51,639 nucleotides of DNA from Roseitalea sp. MMSF_3546 (lineage in GTDB: Bacteria; Pseudomonadota; Alphaproteobacteria; Rhizobiales; Rhizobiaceae). A program made the position numbers and the translations under genes. Positions 39,876 through 49,245 of this stretch are shown one piece after another (position 1 is the first letter of the stretch; each line of letters begins with the position of its first letter). The notes under the pieces were generated by a model. That model searched no databases. It was given only the letters and a program-made list of their open reading frames with translations, and was not told the DNA's origin. The stretch lies in assembly GCF_030732865.1 (NCBI RefSeq), contig NZ_JASHKB010000027.1:1-51639 (forward strand), read 5' to 3'.

Positions 39876-41182
39876 TGACCGATTTCTTCGCCGGCATCGA
39901 GCCGATCAGATATGAAGGGCCGGACAGCGACAACCCGCTCGCCTTTCGCCACTACGATCCCGACGCGGTCGTGATGGGCAAGCGGCTCGAGGACCATCTG
40001 CGCTTTGCTGTGGCCTGGTGGCACTCCTTTGCCTGGCCGGGTGGCGACCCGTTCGGCGGGCAGACCTTCGAGCGGCCCTGGTTCGGCGACACCATGGACC
40101 ATGCCAAAATGAAGGCGGACGTTGCCTTCGAGATGTTTTCGATCCTCGGCCAGCCCTTCTTCTGCTTCCACGACGCCGACATCCGGCCCGAGGGCGCCGA
40201 CTTCGCCGAGAACACTGCGAAACTTGACGAAATGGTCGACCATATCGGCGCCAGGATGGAGAAGGTCGGCACGAAGCTCCTGTGGGGCACGGCGAACCTG
40301 TTCACCAACCGCCGCTACATGGCCGGCGCCGCGAGCAATCCCGATCCGGACGTCTTCGCGTTCGCGGCGGCGACGGTGAAGACGTGCATGGACGCCACGC
40401 ACAGGCTGGGCGGTGCCAACTATGTGCTGTGGGGCGGGCGCGAGGGCTACGAGACGCTGCTGAACACCGATATCGGCCGCGAGGACGCGCAACTCGGCCG
40501 GTTCATGAACCTGGTGGTCGAATACAAGCACAAGATCGGTTTCGACGGCACCATCCTGATCGAGCCCAAGCCGCAGGAGCCGACCAAGCACCAGTACGAC
40601 TATGACGTCGCCACGGTCTATGGCTTCCTCAAGCGGCACGGGCTCGAAGACGAGATCAGGTTGAATATCGAGCAGGGCCACTCGATCCTGGCCGGTCATT
40701 CCTTCGAGCACGAGATCGCGCTCGCCACGGCGCTCGGCATCTTCGGGTCGATCGACATGAACCGCAACGACTACCAGTCGGGCTGGGACACCGACCAGTT
40801 CCCCAACAATGCGGCCGAGGTGGCGCTGGCCTATTACGAGATCCTCAAGGCCGGCGGGTTTTCCACCGGCGGCACCAATTTCGATGCCAAGCTGCGGCGG
40901 CAGTCGCTCGATCCCCAGGATCTGGTCGCCGCCCATGTCGGCGCCATGGATGTGTGTGCGCGCGGGCTCAAGGCGGCCGCGGCGATGCTCGAGGACGGCG
41001 AGCTCGAGCGCCTTCGGGCGGAACGCTATGCGGGCTGGGAGAGCGAAAAGGGCAGCAAGCTGCTGGCCGGCGAGTGGTCGCTGGAGGAGATCGCGGACCA
41101 TGTCCGGCGCGCCGGTGTCAATCCGGCGCCGCGCTCGGGCCGCCAGGAGATCCTGGAAAACCTGGTCAATCGATATGTGTAA
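39875..41182 (+). CDS. xylA: Xylose isomerase
   Basis: The 435-residue TIM-barrel metalloenzyme converts D-xylose to D-xylulose. Family signatures are [12 protein letters not shown] (catalytic His and Asp), [17 protein letters not shown] (metal-site Glu and Lys) and [37 protein letters not shown] holds further metal-site aspartates. It is the last gene of the xylose operon and of normal class-II length. A 95-bp gap separates it from the acyl-CoA dehydrogenase gene. Confidence 0.97.
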
Positions 41183-42652: not shown

Positions 42653-43294
42653 CTATCGCGGCCGGATCCCGTTCAGCAGGATCGAAAGCACGGCGTGCGA
42701 GGCCTGCTCGCTGAAGCCCGGCCCCTTGGCCTGGCTGCCCAGCAGCGCGCCGATCTGCGCCTCGAAATCGGCGTAATGCTGCGTCGTTGCCCAGATGGCG
42801 AAGATCAGGTGATAGGGATCGACGGGGGCGAGGCGGCCCTGGTCGATCCAGGTGCCGATCACGGCGGCCTTTTCGTCGACCAGCGCCTTCAGCCGCGTGG
42901 TCAGGAACTCCATGACGAGCGGGGCGCCGCGCTGGATCTCGTTGGCGAACAGGCGCGAGGCCTCGGGGCTGGTCTCCGACATCTTGAGTTTGACGGTGAT
43001 GTAGCGTCGCAATTCCTCGATCGGCTCGCCGTCCGGGTCGATCTGGGCAAAGGGCCGCAGCCAGTCCTCCACGGTCTGCTCGATCACCGTGCGGTAGATG
43101 TCTTCCTTGGACGGGTAATAATAAAGCAGGTTGGTCTTGGACATGCCGGCGCGTTCGGCGATGCGGTCGACCGTGGCGCCGCGATAGCCGTCGGTTGAGA
43201 ACACGTCGAGCGCGGCCTGCGTGATCAGGGCGCGGTTCTCGGTCTGGATCCGGCTTCGACTGCCGCTTCTCGCCTGCGCCGCGCCCGCTGCCAC
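42653..43294 (-). CDS. rutR: TetR-family pyrimidine regulator RutR
   Basis: The 213-residue regulator has a TetR HTH (about 22-70) with GMSKTNLLYYYPSKEDIY, nearly as in E. coli RutR. The effector domain includes SRLFANEIQRGAPLVMEFLT, HLIFAIWATTQHYADF and the C-terminal NGIRPR. E. coli RutR binds uracil or thymine and leaves DNA. The start is taken as a GTG at 43294, which gives the E. coli length; a TTG at 43336 would add 14 residues. It diverges from mmsA, with a RutR-like operator in between, and sits near hyuC and hydA. Confidence 0.9.
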   Translation of the reverse strand: MAAGAAQARSGSRSRIQTENRALITQAALDVFSTDGYRGATVDRIAERAGMSKTNLLYYYPSKEDIYRTVIEQTVEDWLRPFAQIDPDGEPIEELRRYITVKLKMSETSPEASRLFANEIQRGAPLVMEFLTTRLKALVDEKAAVIGTWIDQGRLAPVDPYHLIFAIWATTQHYADFEAQIGALLGSQAKGPGFSEQASHAVLSILLNGIRPR

Positions 43295-43344
43295 GTGCTG
43301 TCCCCGCCTCTGCCTTGAGCTTTCCGGTCGAGACAAATACCATC

Positions 43345-43358
43345 TTGACCGTGGTCAG
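43345..43358. promoter_or_regulatory. Short palindrome near the rutR start
   Basis: TGACC-GT-GGTCA arms are perfect, but the half-sites are two bases closer than in the RutR consensus. It may be a secondary RutR site or another regulator's site. It overlaps the leader of rutR. Confidence 0.35.
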
Positions 43359-43379
43359 TCGCTCCCATAGCGTCCAATT

Positions 43380-43395
43380 TTGACCAGTTAGTCAA
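43380..43395. promoter_or_regulatory. RutR operator between rutR and mmsA
   Basis: TTGACCAGTTAGTCAA matches the E. coli RutR consensus TTGACCANNTGGTCAA at all but one position. It lies 27 bp upstream of the mmsA ATG and 86-101 bp upstream of the rutR start, so it could govern both genes. The match is seen; regulation by uracil is inferred. Confidence 0.78.
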
Positions 43396-43422
43396 GAAAT
43401 TTGCCTATCGAGCGGGGATCCC

Positions 43423-44925
<1,503 letters not shown>

Positions 44926-44936
44926 CGGAGTTCCGA

Positions 44937-45887
44937 TTGAACGTAGTCGATATCCTGAACGAACAGCAACGGCTGTTGACCGACCAACTGAATGCGGCTC
45001 GCAGAAAGTTCAGCCAATCTGGTAATCGCGGCGACCATCTTGAAGACGCGTTCCGGAGCTTTTTGAATGATCATACTCCAAGCAGCCTTACGGTTGGCAC
45101 CGGTGAGGTTGTATCGCTGGATGGCTATGACAATCACCGAGTTTCGCGCCAATTGGACGTGGTTGTGAATACAAGAAACCAGCCGTTTCGCAATGATGTG
45201 AACGAAGCAGGAGTCTACCTGATAGAAGGTGTTGCAGCGGCTGGAGAAGTTAAATCTGTTCTGAATTCCAGCATGATTGAAACAGAACTATTAAAATCAA
45301 GTCAGTTCCGTTCTCTTATTGCGAAACCTGTTTCGAATCTAATCGCGGTTCGAAATCCCGATACGTGGGAGTCGTACTACTGTTTCTACAGGCCATATTT
45401 CTTGCTCTGCCTTGAGTCCAAGTTGCCATGGCAGCGTGTTGCTATATCGATTTTGGAGTGCATCCGCGATACGCGGCGTATCCCTATCGACGCAGTATTT
45501 TTTCTCGATTCCGGAATGATTTTTTTGATTTCTCCCTTTCAAAAAAGGCCTTGGAGTTACAGCAAGGGTACCCCTTTTGGACACGATATCTATTCTTACA
45601 AGAGCGTTGTCGGCTTCTTTGATTTAATGAAAATCAGTTCGCCTTTAGCTATGTTCATAGCGTGGCTTTCATATTTTCGAGGTTCGATGGTGGAGGATAT
45701 GAACCCTATTCAATATTACATTCAGGAAGGCCTGCCGATTGCAGAAGATATTGTGCTTCCGCAAGGCCGTATTTGTCTGGCTGACGGTGAAGATATCAAC
45801 AGTTGGGCTGTGCGTAGAGCAGGAGAGTTCGTCGCAGATCCACTCAATGGATTGCTTGACGCTCTGAAGTCGAGCCTGAGGAACTAG
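44937..45887 (+). CDS. DUF6602-like protein, possible nuclease fold, AT-rich island
   Basis: The 316-residue product resembles DUF6602 proteins of unknown function. The N-terminal half has GNRGDHLEDAFRSFL, then D74 in RQLDVVV and E104-x-K106 in AAGEVKSV, an order seen in PD-(D/E)xK nuclease folds. The second half has hydrophobic stretches (about 145-155 and 230-240). The start is a TTG with GGAG 6 bases upstream. The gene is clearly AT-richer than its neighbours: 23 of 60 bases are G/C at 45481-45540, against 44 of 60 at 45961-46020. It has probably been acquired, yet sits neatly between mmsA and hyuC. Confidence 0.7.
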   Translation: MNVVDILNEQQRLLTDQLNAARRKFSQSGNRGDHLEDAFRSFLNDHTPSSLTVGTGEVVSLDGYDNHRVSRQLDVVVNTRNQPFRNDVNEAGVYLIEGVAAAGEVKSVLNSSMIETELLKSSQFRSLIAKPVSNLIAVRNPDTWESYYCFYRPYFLLCLESKLPWQRVAISILECIRDTRRIPIDAVFFLDSGMIFLISPFQKRPWSYSKGTPFGHDIYSYKSVVGFFDLMKISSPLAMFIAWLSYFRGSMVEDMNPIQYYIQEGLPIAEDIVLPQGRICLADGEDINSWAVRRAGEFVADPLNGLLDALKSSLRN

Positions 45888-45889
45888 AT

Positions 45890-47146
45890 ATGAGTATTGC
45901 AGCACCCGGCGAAAACCTTCGCATCGACGGCGACCGGCTGTGGGACGCCATCCACGCCATGGCCGAGATCGGGCCGGGTGTCGCCGGCGGCAACAACCGC
46001 CAGACCGTGACCGACGAGGACGCCGAGGGCCGCCGCCTGTTCCAGCGCTGGTGCGAGGAGGCGGGGCTTACCATGGGCGTCGACGAGATGGGAACGATGT
46101 TCATGCGGCGCGAGGGCACCGACCCCGACGCGCTGCCGGTCTATGTCGGCTCGCATCTGGACACCCAGCCCACCGGCGGGCGCTATGACGGGGTGCTGGG
46201 CGTCCTCGCCGGGCTGGAGATCGTGCGCACCATGAACGATCTCGACATCAGGACCAAGCACCCGATCGTCGTCACCAACTGGACCAACGAGGAGGGCACG
46301 CGCTTCGCCCCGGCGATGATGGCCTCGGGCGTGTTCGCCGGCGTGCTCGACCAGGCCGATGTCTACGGGCACACCGACGCCGAGGGCAAGACCTTCGGCG
46401 CCGAACTCGAACGCATCGGCTGGAAGGGCACCGAGAAGGTCGGCGACCGCAAGATGCACGCCTTTTTCGAACTGCACATCGAGCAGGGGCCGATCCTGGA
46501 AGCCGAGGGCAGGGACATCGGCGTGGTCACGCATGGCCAGGGGCTGCGCTGGATCGAGTGTACGGTGACCGGCAAGGAGAGCCATACCGGCTCGACGCCG
46601 ATGCCGATGCGCAGGAATGCGGGCAGGGGGCTGGCGCAGATCACCGAGCTCGTGCATCGGATCGCCATGGACAACGCGCCCAATGCGGTCGGCGCGATCG
46701 GCCATGTCGACGTCTACCCCAATTCGCGCAACATCATTCCCGGCAAGGTGGTGTTCACGGTCGATTTCAGGAGCCACGAGCTCGACCGTCTGAACGCGAT
46801 GGTCGACCGGCTGCTGGAAGAAGCGCCGAAGCTGTGCGAGGCGATCGGGGTCGGTTTCCAGGCGCAGATCGTCGGCCAGTTCGACCCGCCCGCCTTCGAC
46901 GAGGAGTGCGTGCGGATGATCCGCGAGGCGGCCGAGCGGCTGGGCTATTCGCACATGGACATCGTCTCGGGCGCCGGGCACGATGCGTGCTGGATCAACC
47001 GGGTGGCGCCGACGGCGATGGTGATGTGCCCGTGCGTCGACGGGCTTTCCCACAACGAGGCCGAGGAGATCACCAAGCAGTGGGCGAAGGCCGGCGCGGA
47101 CGTTCTGTTCCACGCCGTGATGGAAAAGGCGGAGATCGTGGGGTGA
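45890..47146 (+). CDS. hyuC: N-carbamoyl-beta-alanine amidohydrolase (HyuC/AmaB family)
   Basis: This 418-residue M20-type zinc hydrolase cuts the carbamoyl group from N-carbamoyl-beta-alanine, giving beta-alanine, CO2 and ammonia. Motifs seen are YVGSHLDTQPTGGRYDG and TNWTNEEGTRF (metal ligands), HIEQGPILEAEG and the late SGAGHDACWINRVAP. Family members also include allantoate amidohydrolases. The RutR, MmsA and dihydropyrimidinase neighbours favour the pyrimidine role, and purine breakdown here already uses allantoicase. The ATG has GAGG upstream, 2 bp after the previous stop. Confidence 0.9.
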   Translation: MSIAAPGENLRIDGDRLWDAIHAMAEIGPGVAGGNNRQTVTDEDAEGRRLFQRWCEEAGLTMGVDEMGTMFMRREGTDPDALPVYVGSHLDTQPTGGRYDGVLGVLAGLEIVRTMNDLDIRTKHPIVVTNWTNEEGTRFAPAMMASGVFAGVLDQADVYGHTDAEGKTFGAELERIGWKGTEKVGDRKMHAFFELHIEQGPILEAEGRDIGVVTHGQGLRWIECTVTGKESHTGSTPMPMRRNAGRGLAQITELVHRIAMDNAPNAVGAIGHVDVYPNSRNIIPGKVVFTVDFRSHELDRLNAMVDRLLEEAPKLCEAIGVGFQAQIVGQFDPPAFDEECVRMIREAAERLGYSHMDIVSGAGHDACWINRVAPTAMVMCPCVDGLSHNEAEEITKQWAKAGADVLFHAVMEKAEIVG

Positions 47147-47156
47147 GTGCCGCGTC

Positions 47157-47290
47157 TCCCCCTCACCCAACTGCGGCTAAGGCTTTGCTGTGCAAAGCCA
47201 AGCCTCGTATCCTTCTCCCCGGCGGGGAGAAGAAGAACGCGTCGATGCCGGCGACTATTCCTTCTCCCCTCGGGGAGAAGGATACGAAGA
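47157..47290. repeat. Palindromic repeat, family B (hyuC-DUF559 gap)
   Basis: TCGTATCCTTCTCCCC at 47205-47220 pairs perfectly with GGGGAGAAGGATACGA at 47272-47287. Inner CTTCTCCCC/GGGGAGAAG palindromes also occur on each side. It fills most of the gap between hyuC and the DUF559 gene. Confidence 0.87.
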
Positions 47291-47311
47291 CACAATGAGC
47301 GGAGCGAATTG

Positions 47312-47794
47312 ATGTCGAAGTTGGATGAGGGGGCATATGCGCCCAAACCAAGTCCGCACACCAAAACCTTCGCCCGTGCCATGCGCGCCGCACCGACGGA
47401 TGCCGAGCATCTGCTGTGGTTCGAGCTTCGCAACCGGCACCTGAACGGCTATCGCTTCAGCCGGCAGGTTCGCATCGGCCCCTTCATCGCCGATTTTGCG
47501 TGTCGTGCAAGGAAGTTGGTTGTCGAGCTTGATGGCAGTCAGCATGCTGGCAGCATCCATGATGAGAGGCGAACACGCAGCCCGAAATCGCGTGGATATG
47601 CTGTCCTTCGCTTCTGGAACGATGAGGTCGTCTTCGAACGCGGTGCGGTGCTTGATACGATCCTTGCCGTGCTCGACGGCCGCATCCATTCCCCCTCACC
47701 CGGCCTGCGCTTTGCGCCGGCCGACCTCTCCCCGATGGGGAGAGGAGAGCAGGCCTTCGGCCGCCACGCCCCAAGATCCGGGAGAAAGCCATGA
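47312..47794 (+). CDS. DUF559 Vsr-like endonuclease-domain protein
   Basis: The 160-residue product carries a DUF559 domain (about residues 18-122), related to very-short-patch-repair endonucleases. Seen are LRNRHLNGYRFSRQVRIGPF, D61 in FIADFACRARKLVVELDG (E72-x-D-G) and H78 in GSQHAG, then RGYAVLRFWNDEV. These are the residues expected for the Mg site. The role in cells is unknown. The last 35 or so residues are coded by a palindromic repeat. The ATG at 47312 has GGAG upstream. The stop overlaps the hydA start (ATGA), placing it inside the pyrimidine operon. Confidence 0.85.
   Translation: MSKLDEGAYAPKPSPHTKTFARAMRAAPTDAEHLLWFELRNRHLNGYRFSRQVRIGPFIADFACRARKLVVELDGSQHAGSIHDERRTRSPKSRGYAVLRFWNDEVVFERGAVLDTILAVLDGRIHSPSPGLRFAPADLSPMGRGEQAFGRHAPRSGRKP
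47688..47758. repeat. Palindromic repeat, family C (end of the DUF559 gene)
   Basis: GGCCTGC...GCAGGCC arms surround an inner CCTCTCCCCGATGGGGAGAGG palindrome. The element is read through as the C-terminal tail of the DUF559 protein, so the gene's end appears to have been made by the repeat. Confidence 0.75.
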
Positions 47795-49245
47795 CCACCA
47801 CCATCATCAAGAACGGCACCATCGTCACAGCCGATCTGACCTACAAGGCGGACGTGAAGATCGAGGACGGGGTGATCGCCGAGATCGGGCCGAACCTGTC
47901 GGGCGGGGAGGAACTGGACGCGACGGGCTGTTACGTCATGCCCGGCGGCATTGATCCGCACGTGCATCTGGAAATGCCGTTCATGGGCACCTATTCGACC
48001 GACGATTTCGAATCGGGCACGCGCGCGGCGCTGTCGGGCGGCACCACCATGGTGGTCGATTTCTGCCTGCCCAACCCCGAACAGTCGCTGCTCGACGCGA
48101 TCCAGCGCTGGGACAACAAGTCGACGCGCGCCCATTGCGACTATTCCTACCACATGGCGATCACCTGGTGGGGCGAGCAGGTGTTCAACGAGATGCCCGA
48201 GGTGGTGAACCGGGGCATCAACACCTTCAAGCACTTCATGGCCTACAAGGGCGCGCTGATGGTCAATGATGACGAGATGTTCGCCTCGTTTCAGCGCTGC
48301 AAGGAGATCGGCGCGGTCCCGCTGGTCCATGCCGAAAACGGCGATGTCGTCGCCGACCTTCAGCGCAAGCTGATGGAAGAGGGCAACAATGGGCCGGAAG
48401 GCCATGCCTATTCGCGCCCGCCCGAGGTCGAGGGCGAGGCGACCAACCGTGCCATCATGATCGCCGACATGGCCGGCGTGCCGCTTTATGTCGTCCATAC
48501 CTCCTGCGAGCAGGCGCACGAGGCGATCCGCCGGGCCCGCCAGAAGGGCATGCGGGTGTGGGGCGAGCCGCTGATCCAGCACCTGACGCTCGACGAGAGC
48601 GAATATTTCGACAAGGACTGGGACCATTCGGCGCGGCGCGTGATGAGCCCGCCCTTCCGCAACAAGGCGCACCAGGATTCGCTGTGGGCCGGGCTGCAGG
48701 CCGGTTCGCTGTCGGTGGTCGCGACCGACCATTGCGCGTTTTCCACCGAGCAGAAGCGCACCGGCGTGGGCGATTTCACCAAGATTCCGAACGGCACGGG
48801 CGGGCTCGAGGACCGGCTGCCGATGCTGTGGACCCATGGCGTGAGCACCGGCCGGCTGACCATGAACGAGTTCGTCGCCGTCACCGCGACCAACATCGCC
48901 AAGATCCTGAACATCTATCCGAAAAAGGGCGCGATCCTGGTCGGTTCGGACGCCGACATCGTCGTGTGGGACCCGAACAAGGAAAAGACGATCAGCGCAT
49001 CCACGCAGCAATCGGCGATCGACTACAACGTCTTCGAGGGCAAGCATGTGAAAGGCCTGCCGCGCTTCACCCTGACGCGCGGGCGCGTTGCCGTGCACGA
49101 TGGCGAAGTGCGGGGCGAGGAAGGCCACGGCCAGTTCGTCGAGCGCCCGGCCAACAATCCGGTCAACCGGGCGCTGTCGACCTGGAAGGAGCTGACGGCT
49201 CCCAGAAAGGTCGAACGCACCGGCATTCCGGCGAGCGGGGTGTGA
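47791..49245 (+). CDS. hydA: Dihydropyrimidinase
   Basis: The 484-residue amidohydrolase opens dihydrouracil and dihydrothymine to N-carbamoyl-beta-amino acids. The metal residues are visible: H57 and H59 in GGIDPHVHLEMPF, the carboxylated lysine K153 in MAYKGAL, histidines in LVHAENGD and YVVHTSCEQ, and an aspartate in ATDHCAF. The length matches bacterial dihydropyrimidinases. The ATG overlaps the DUF559 stop. The pathway order HydA, HyuC, MmsA agrees with RutR control. Dihydropyrimidine dehydrogenase genes are not in the window. Confidence 0.96.
   Translation: MTTTIIKNGTIVTADLTYKADVKIEDGVIAEIGPNLSGGEELDATGCYVMPGGIDPHVHLEMPFMGTYSTDDFESGTRAALSGGTTMVVDFCLPNPEQSLLDAIQRWDNKSTRAHCDYSYHMAITWWGEQVFNEMPEVVNRGINTFKHFMAYKGALMVNDDEMFASFQRCKEIGAVPLVHAENGDVVADLQRKLMEEGNNGPEGHAYSRPPEVEGEATNRAIMIADMAGVPLYVVHTSCEQAHEAIRRARQKGMRVWGEPLIQHLTLDESEYFDKDWDHSARRVMSPPFRNKAHQDSLWAGLQAGSLSVVATDHCAFSTEQKRTGVGDFTKIPNGTGGLEDRLPMLWTHGVSTGRLTMNEFVAVTATNIAKILNIYPKKGAILVGSDADIVVWDPNKEKTISASTQQSAIDYNVFEGKHVKGLPRFTLTRGRVAVHDGEVRGEEGHGQFVERPANNPVNRALSTWKELTAPRKVERTGIPASGV

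Follow-up and report, generated by a model that had tools for sequence, protein, structure and literature searches.

What is a predicted nuclease gene doing between two genes of a presumed pyrimidine-catabolism cluster? The question is posed by a 51,639-nucleotide stretch of Roseitalea sp. MMSF_3546 (contig NZ_JASHKB010000027.1, positions 1 to 51,639; hereafter the window), in which a gene for a protein of 316 aa, with a TTG start and a TAG stop (44937..45887, plus strand), separates mmsA from hyuC. We read it, with confidence that is about evenly balanced, as encoding a solitary NucC-superfamily (DUF6602) PD-(D/E)xK DNase that has its own trigger without a cyclase of the cyclic oligonucleotide-based antiphage signalling system (CBASS) or Cas10, and that is most likely a one-gene abortive-infection or DNA-degrading defence effector imported from an AT-rich source. 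What is supported in this reading is the homology, the kept catalytic residues, the predicted fold, the foreign composition, the gene's absence from congeners and a second case behind mmsA.

Composition and borders of the gene

The first-pass annotation of the window had singled out the gene as AT-rich and deviant in codon use, and both observations hold. Its G+C content (GC) is 0.467, compared with 0.667 in mmsA, 0.671 in hyuC and 0.668 in the whole window, and stretches of 951 bases starting outside 43900-46000 (every 10 bases) have a mean GC of 0.673 (sd 0.029) and never fall below 0.608. GC at third codon positions is 0.49, compared with 0.90 and 0.91 in the flanking mmsA and hyuC. Base shuffles of the gene gave a 316-codon open frame in 0 of 2000 cases, the longest frame having 225 codons. 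The relative in genome G908, described below, supports the TTG start, as its ATG falls at residue 1 in the alignment. An 11-base spacer, CGGAGTTCCGA (44926..44936, plus strand), runs from the mmsA stop to the TTG and contains a GGAG that may serve in ribosome binding, and 2 bases (AT) separate the TAG stop from the ATG of hyuC. The tight operon spacing described earlier is thus real, with its figures of 12 and 3 bp corrected to 11 and 2 bases; the accompanying wording, in frame with the operon's spacing, needs correcting too, as by their coordinates mmsA, the nuclease gene and hyuC occupy three different reading frames.

Predicted fold and active site

The assignment to DUF6602 was borne out by profile search (PF20247, 63.1 bits against a gathering cut-off of 27). 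D74, E104 and K106 are found where the first-pass annotation had placed them and align with the catalytic residues of NucC: the D74 codon (45156..45158, plus strand) with the catalytic Asp (D73 in E. coli, D83 in Serratia), and codons 104-106 (E-V-K; 45246..45254, plus strand) with E104-x-K106 (E114 in Serratia). The structure prediction proposed at that stage returned a nuclease core, with helices at residues 31-46 and 111-125 and strands at 51-59, 73-79 (carrying D74), 99-108 (E104 and K106) and 154-160. The core fold of the PD-(D/E)xK superfamily, with D and E-x-K on neighbouring strands, is thus seen in the model, the fold matches and the aligned residues alike, and the window protein combines the NucC fold with the NucC catalytic residues. 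In fold alignment with NucC, the Cap effector of CBASS and of type III clustered regularly interspaced short palindromic repeat (CRISPR) systems, identity is 16-20% (structures 6p7o/6p7p from E. coli, 6q1h from P. aeruginosa, 6uxf from V. metoecus and 7zgv from Serratia). Over the N-terminal ~250 residues, sequence and model together support a predicted PD-(D/E)xK fold of NucC type whose D-ExK active site is intact. The window protein has ~60 C-terminal residues more than NucC, an extension past the NucC fold that covers approximately residues 253-316 (45693..45884, plus strand) and is modelled with low confidence. The fold comparison barely covered the last 60 residues, and such poor coverage does not point to a new fold.

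The type II restriction endonucleases NgoMIV and BbvCI matched with Z values far below that of NucC, and the gene, unlike theirs, has no methyltransferase at either side, its neighbours being mmsA and hyuC. The best PADLOC match is the CRISPR-associated PD_DExK model PDLC01495 (residues 2-127, 71 bits), whose CRISPR link is unlike the situation in the window's genome, where no CRISPR RAMP gene was detected.

Relation to NucC and its cyclase partners

In the literature passages available, NucC appears solely as an effector switched on by cyclic triadenylate (cA3) from CBASS or type III CRISPR, and passages of two reviews describe a NucC trimer that assembles into a hexamer in response to cA3 and destroys the DNA (PMC10419184, PMC10952713). 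The window protein scores higher against a profile of non-canonical DUF6602 proteins (125, residues 21-198) than against canonical NucC (82, residues 3-187). In the tree the 24 canonical rows form one side of a branch (support 91/90), with the window protein outside on a very long branch (6.03), the exact position of which is uncertain. We take R53, Y81 and T226 to be the residues of E. coli NucC that contact cA3. The 24 canonical rows all carry R, Y/F and T/S there, and none of the 13 non-canonical rows has all three together; single positions are met in some of the latter (R in L055; Y in L039 and L058; T/S in L072 and L082). The window protein has S, a gap and V, where the call at T226 depends on a C-terminal half that aligns poorly; in the G908 relative, R occupies the first position and the second falls in a gap.

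Among 24 canonical loci, 20 had a CD-NTase-like gene in the flanks retrieved, and none of the 17 non-canonical loci (16 plus the window) had one (Fisher p 5e-8, with relatedness ignored and with L037 and L086, two of the 20, having supplied search seeds); some of the loci end early at contig ends, and four of the 17 (L088, L091, L123 and L125) lie outside alignment A4, the presumed residue trio being missing in each. Whole-genome searches detected SMODS in 16 of the 24 genomes with a canonical gene and in 3 of the 15 with a non-canonical one; of these three, G504 and G631 have it on a contig other than that of the DUF6602 gene, and in G880 the contigs could not be matched. The window holds no CD-NTase, and its genome (99.5% complete) holds no SMODS, no RAMP and no relative of the R. 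leguminosarum CD-NTase, other cyclase types not having been searched. As far as these three probes and the presumed cA3 residues tell, the protein would not be wired to a CBASS cyclase or to Cas10. Because the presumed cA3-contact residues are lacking and these probes found no cyclase partner, we file the gene, on its sequence, as a putative variant within the DUF6602/NucC superfamily and not as NucC proper. It resembles other non-canonical DUF6602 proteins (L055, L062, L064, L050, L051, L119 and L061) in having no linked CD-NTase and an incomplete set of presumed cA3 residues; it differs from them in its longer C-terminus and, together with the G908 relative, forms a lineage of its own placed behind mmsA.

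A PF20247 match in the congener G002 was rejected as a homologue; it is no close relative, the locus (L041) being a fragment of a canonical NucC cut by the contig end.

The mmsA/hyuC junction

A close hyuC (at least 60% identity) was present in 42 genomes, and 11 of these have mmsA within ~6 kb upstream. The junction holds the nuclease gene in G000; an AT-rich (48% GC) open reading frame (ORF) for a membrane-like protein of 177 aa in G003 (L002:2756-3286, minus strand), with a weak 8xMP match below cut-off and no PADLOC match; a cupin, a Phd-type antitoxin and a PIN protein of ordinary GC in G046 (L154:44-1109, minus strand); and a cupin in G006. It is a longer stretch with no gene seen in G004, G041, G051 and G049, repeat-like by eye in the first three, and is almost empty in G001, G002 and G008. 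The junction is an example of a site between metabolic genes at which single foreign genes are taken up. In the comparison with relatives that had been suggested for the insert, the nuclease gene was missing from the gap in all four congeneric species in which mmsA and hyuC have stayed together. HyuC starts with MSI in the window and with MPSQP in G004, while G001, G002 and G003 have MP; homology is restored from GCAGCACCC onwards, so that the insert extends to the hyuC start; this change of a few bases cannot be dated. A target-site duplication was sought at the insert ends and rejected, no direct repeat of at least 10 bases being present.

A relative behind mmsA in a second genus

Close members were sought in 398 genomes of the phylum, 251 relatives of G908 and 297 genomes of the order. 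The sole strong match (256.9 bits) was in G908, a member of a different genus in the same family as the window's host; all others, the window itself apart, scored at most 45 bits. The G908 gene stands directly behind mmsA, whose product is 74-81% identical to that of the window, and its own product is 46% identical to the window protein over 127 residues. Its GC is 0.39 on a contig of 0.62. It comes after genes for PreA of dihydropyrimidine dehydrogenase (735 bits, cut-off 335) and for an omega-aminotransferase (766 bits, cut-off 500), and still farther upstream lies one for an NAD(P)-binding partner-like protein (328 bits, below cut-off). The contig ends inside the nuclease relative's gene, and hyuC was not found in the G908 assembly. 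The same place in two genera is the strongest sign that position matters. For the pair, the nonsynonymous rate (dN) is 0.57 and the synonymous rate (dS) is not computable, as with saturated sites. Two imports, or an exchange via the flanking DNA, appear likelier than old common inheritance, given that both copies remain AT-rich and differ widely in sequence. The mmsA copy before the relative (L104:1-1440) matches in two frames and is therefore broken or misassembled.

Distribution and neighbours of DUF6602 genes

DUF6602 is sparse, with 6 of 151 relatives, 8 of 385 genomes in the class (7 over cut-off) and 19 of 394 in the family, counted in overlapping samples. The weak class match, in G182 (21.7 bits, below cut-off), was discarded; it falls within a much longer ORF that is RNA polymerase subunit-like by eye. 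In named genomes, a scan with only the protein as query hit 16 stretches but no relative, and the 25 loci found with alignment A1 were without exception more distant. Plasmid matches comprised six Rhizobium leguminosarum records, over the N-terminal part only, and both that were fetched proved to be pairs of a nucleotidyltransferase and a NucC-type gene. On these two conjugative plasmids (L086, L087) the nucleotidyltransferase gene overlaps the DUF6602-type gene by 4 bases, as CBASS-like pairs, and one of the two nuclease genes is annotated as "hypothetical protein" only.

A Pfam scan of selected neighbours covered 5 of the 16 non-canonical loci and found an OLD-like ATPase and a type I R-like protein at L061, KAP NTPases at L040 and L062, AbiEi and AbiEii at L089, and a cytosine-5 methylase at L094 (G804), in a region prophage-like by eye. 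Elsewhere the genes around non-canonical members look ordinary by eye. The picture leans towards defence without amounting to an enrichment test. A literature search found no paper on DUF6602, and titles and passages held no description of a cyclase-free NucC group.

The surrounding cluster and its regulator

The gene is flanked by mmsA, for a CoA-acylating methylmalonate-semialdehyde dehydrogenase (43423..44925, plus strand; TIGR01722, 724 bits), and by a hyuC-type hydantoinase/carbamoylase amidase gene, beta-ureidopropionase-like (45890..47146, plus strand; NF006769, 677 bits; TIGR01879, 386 bits). Downstream follow a dihydropyrimidinase gene (47791..49245, plus strand; TIGR02033, 601 bits) and genes for an ABC-transporter ATPase and permease. 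We take the pathway to be reductive pyrimidine catabolism. A divergent RutR-like TetR-family regulator (42653..43336, minus strand) scores below both relevant cut-offs (TIGR03613, 246 bits against 368; PRK15008, 226.9 against 230). Between it and mmsA lies a palindrome, TTGACCAGTTAGTCAA (43380..43395), one mismatch from what we assume to be the RutR-box consensus; with up to two mismatches allowed, the window holds 2 matches where 0.07 are expected, the other being at 40224 with two mismatches. A one-mismatch site occurs at the corresponding place in all four congeners. RutR is described as binding a palindrome of ~16 bp in a passage of PMC10891134. In the 12.3 kb examined of G908, neither a RutR box (up to 2 mismatches) nor any match to the window's TetR was found. 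Within 43200-47400 no sigma-70-type promoter was found, and two terminator-like sites were seen, below the count in shuffles.

Possible role and alternative explanations

The gene would have been acquired from an AT-rich source into a junction that holds other cargo in relatives, and would be co-transcribed with mmsA and hyuC. Its product may be kept inactive until some cue switches it on, perhaps via a non-canonical pocket or the C-terminal extension, upon which the predicted DNase would destroy DNA in abortive infection or phage defence. The first-pass annotation had likewise suggested a foreign nuclease gene with a possible part in defence; nuclease fold, residues and foreign composition have stood, and the defence role remains a conjecture. 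Several observations weigh against our reading. The DNase activity and the defence phenotype are predictions. With a 9-row alignment the model drops to a pLDDT of 58.5, its core strands and helices persisting, and the structure alignment included canonical NucC rows, so that the model is biased towards NucC. Of the three active-site residues, whose invariance had been proposed as a check, the one at the E104 position is Ser in three of 26 further family members (L054, L105 and L106), and the triad is therefore not universal in DUF6602. Phages gave no match, and 101 and 12 pattern matches in viral contigs were none of them confirmed. Several non-canonical loci (e.g. L064, L090, L092 and L093) have no obvious defence neighbour by eye.

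A NucC-type effector might instead have strayed from a CBASS or CRISPR locus and lost its cyclase, so that it works only where an unlinked or incoming cyclase supplies cyclic oligonucleotide in trans, or is decaying. Homology to a cyclase-dependent effector, the very diverged sequence (branch length 6.03) and the sparse family (19 of 394 genomes) agree with this. We nevertheless hold it to be rather unlikely, given an intact ORF with its catalytic residues, a 46% protein similarity to G908 kept although dS is not computable (dN 0.57), the absence of all three presumed cA3-contact residues, and the recurrence of non-canonical members without a linked cyclase, which is more than a single accident. 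That the only two subfamily members found both lie behind mmsA in pyrimidine-catabolism clusters of two genera, with a RutR-like regulator and box upstream in the window, could also mean that the nuclease serves that pathway, for example by degrading DNA to supply bases or by being regulated by intermediates. The gap without a nuclease in four of four congeners, the AT-richness in both hosts, as in recent imports, and the lack of box and matching TetR in the examined part of G908 make this improbable, the more so as the cases number just two, one of which yielded no hyuC.

Least probable to us is a site-directed selfish nuclease that cuts the empty junction and, in the manner of a homing endonuclease, gets copied there: a compact insertion at the same spot in two genera, at only 46% protein identity, would suit it, but unrelated genes fill the junction in G003 and G046, a review passage describes NucC as a non-specific DNA cutter, the insert ends have no direct repeat of at least 10 bases, and empty-site sequences differ among species. 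Only marginally more credible, and thus very improbable, is an extension of our own reading in which cyclase-free NucC relatives form a separate class of defence nucleases with another trigger, and the window member came under a uracil/thymine-sensing RutR-like repressor after operon capture, phage-released nucleobases arming a suicidal DNase; RutR-like gating as such is possible in the window.

Relatives that recur, mostly with intact catalytic residues, and that lack both the presumed cA3 residue set and a linked CD-NTase would mean a nuclease re-wired to another trigger, and the mmsA/hyuC junction offers a concrete place to seek more one-gene defence cargo outside classical defence islands.

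Further observations

The three family members with Ser for the catalytic Glu may be inactive or have a shifted active site. The next gap of the cluster, between hyuC and the dihydropyrimidinase gene, holds a DUF559 endonuclease-fold gene (47147-47794, plus strand; PF04480, 119 bits) with repeat-like sequence around it; it was not found in the 12 kb examined of G001, G002 and G004, and a copy 86% identical is present in G003.
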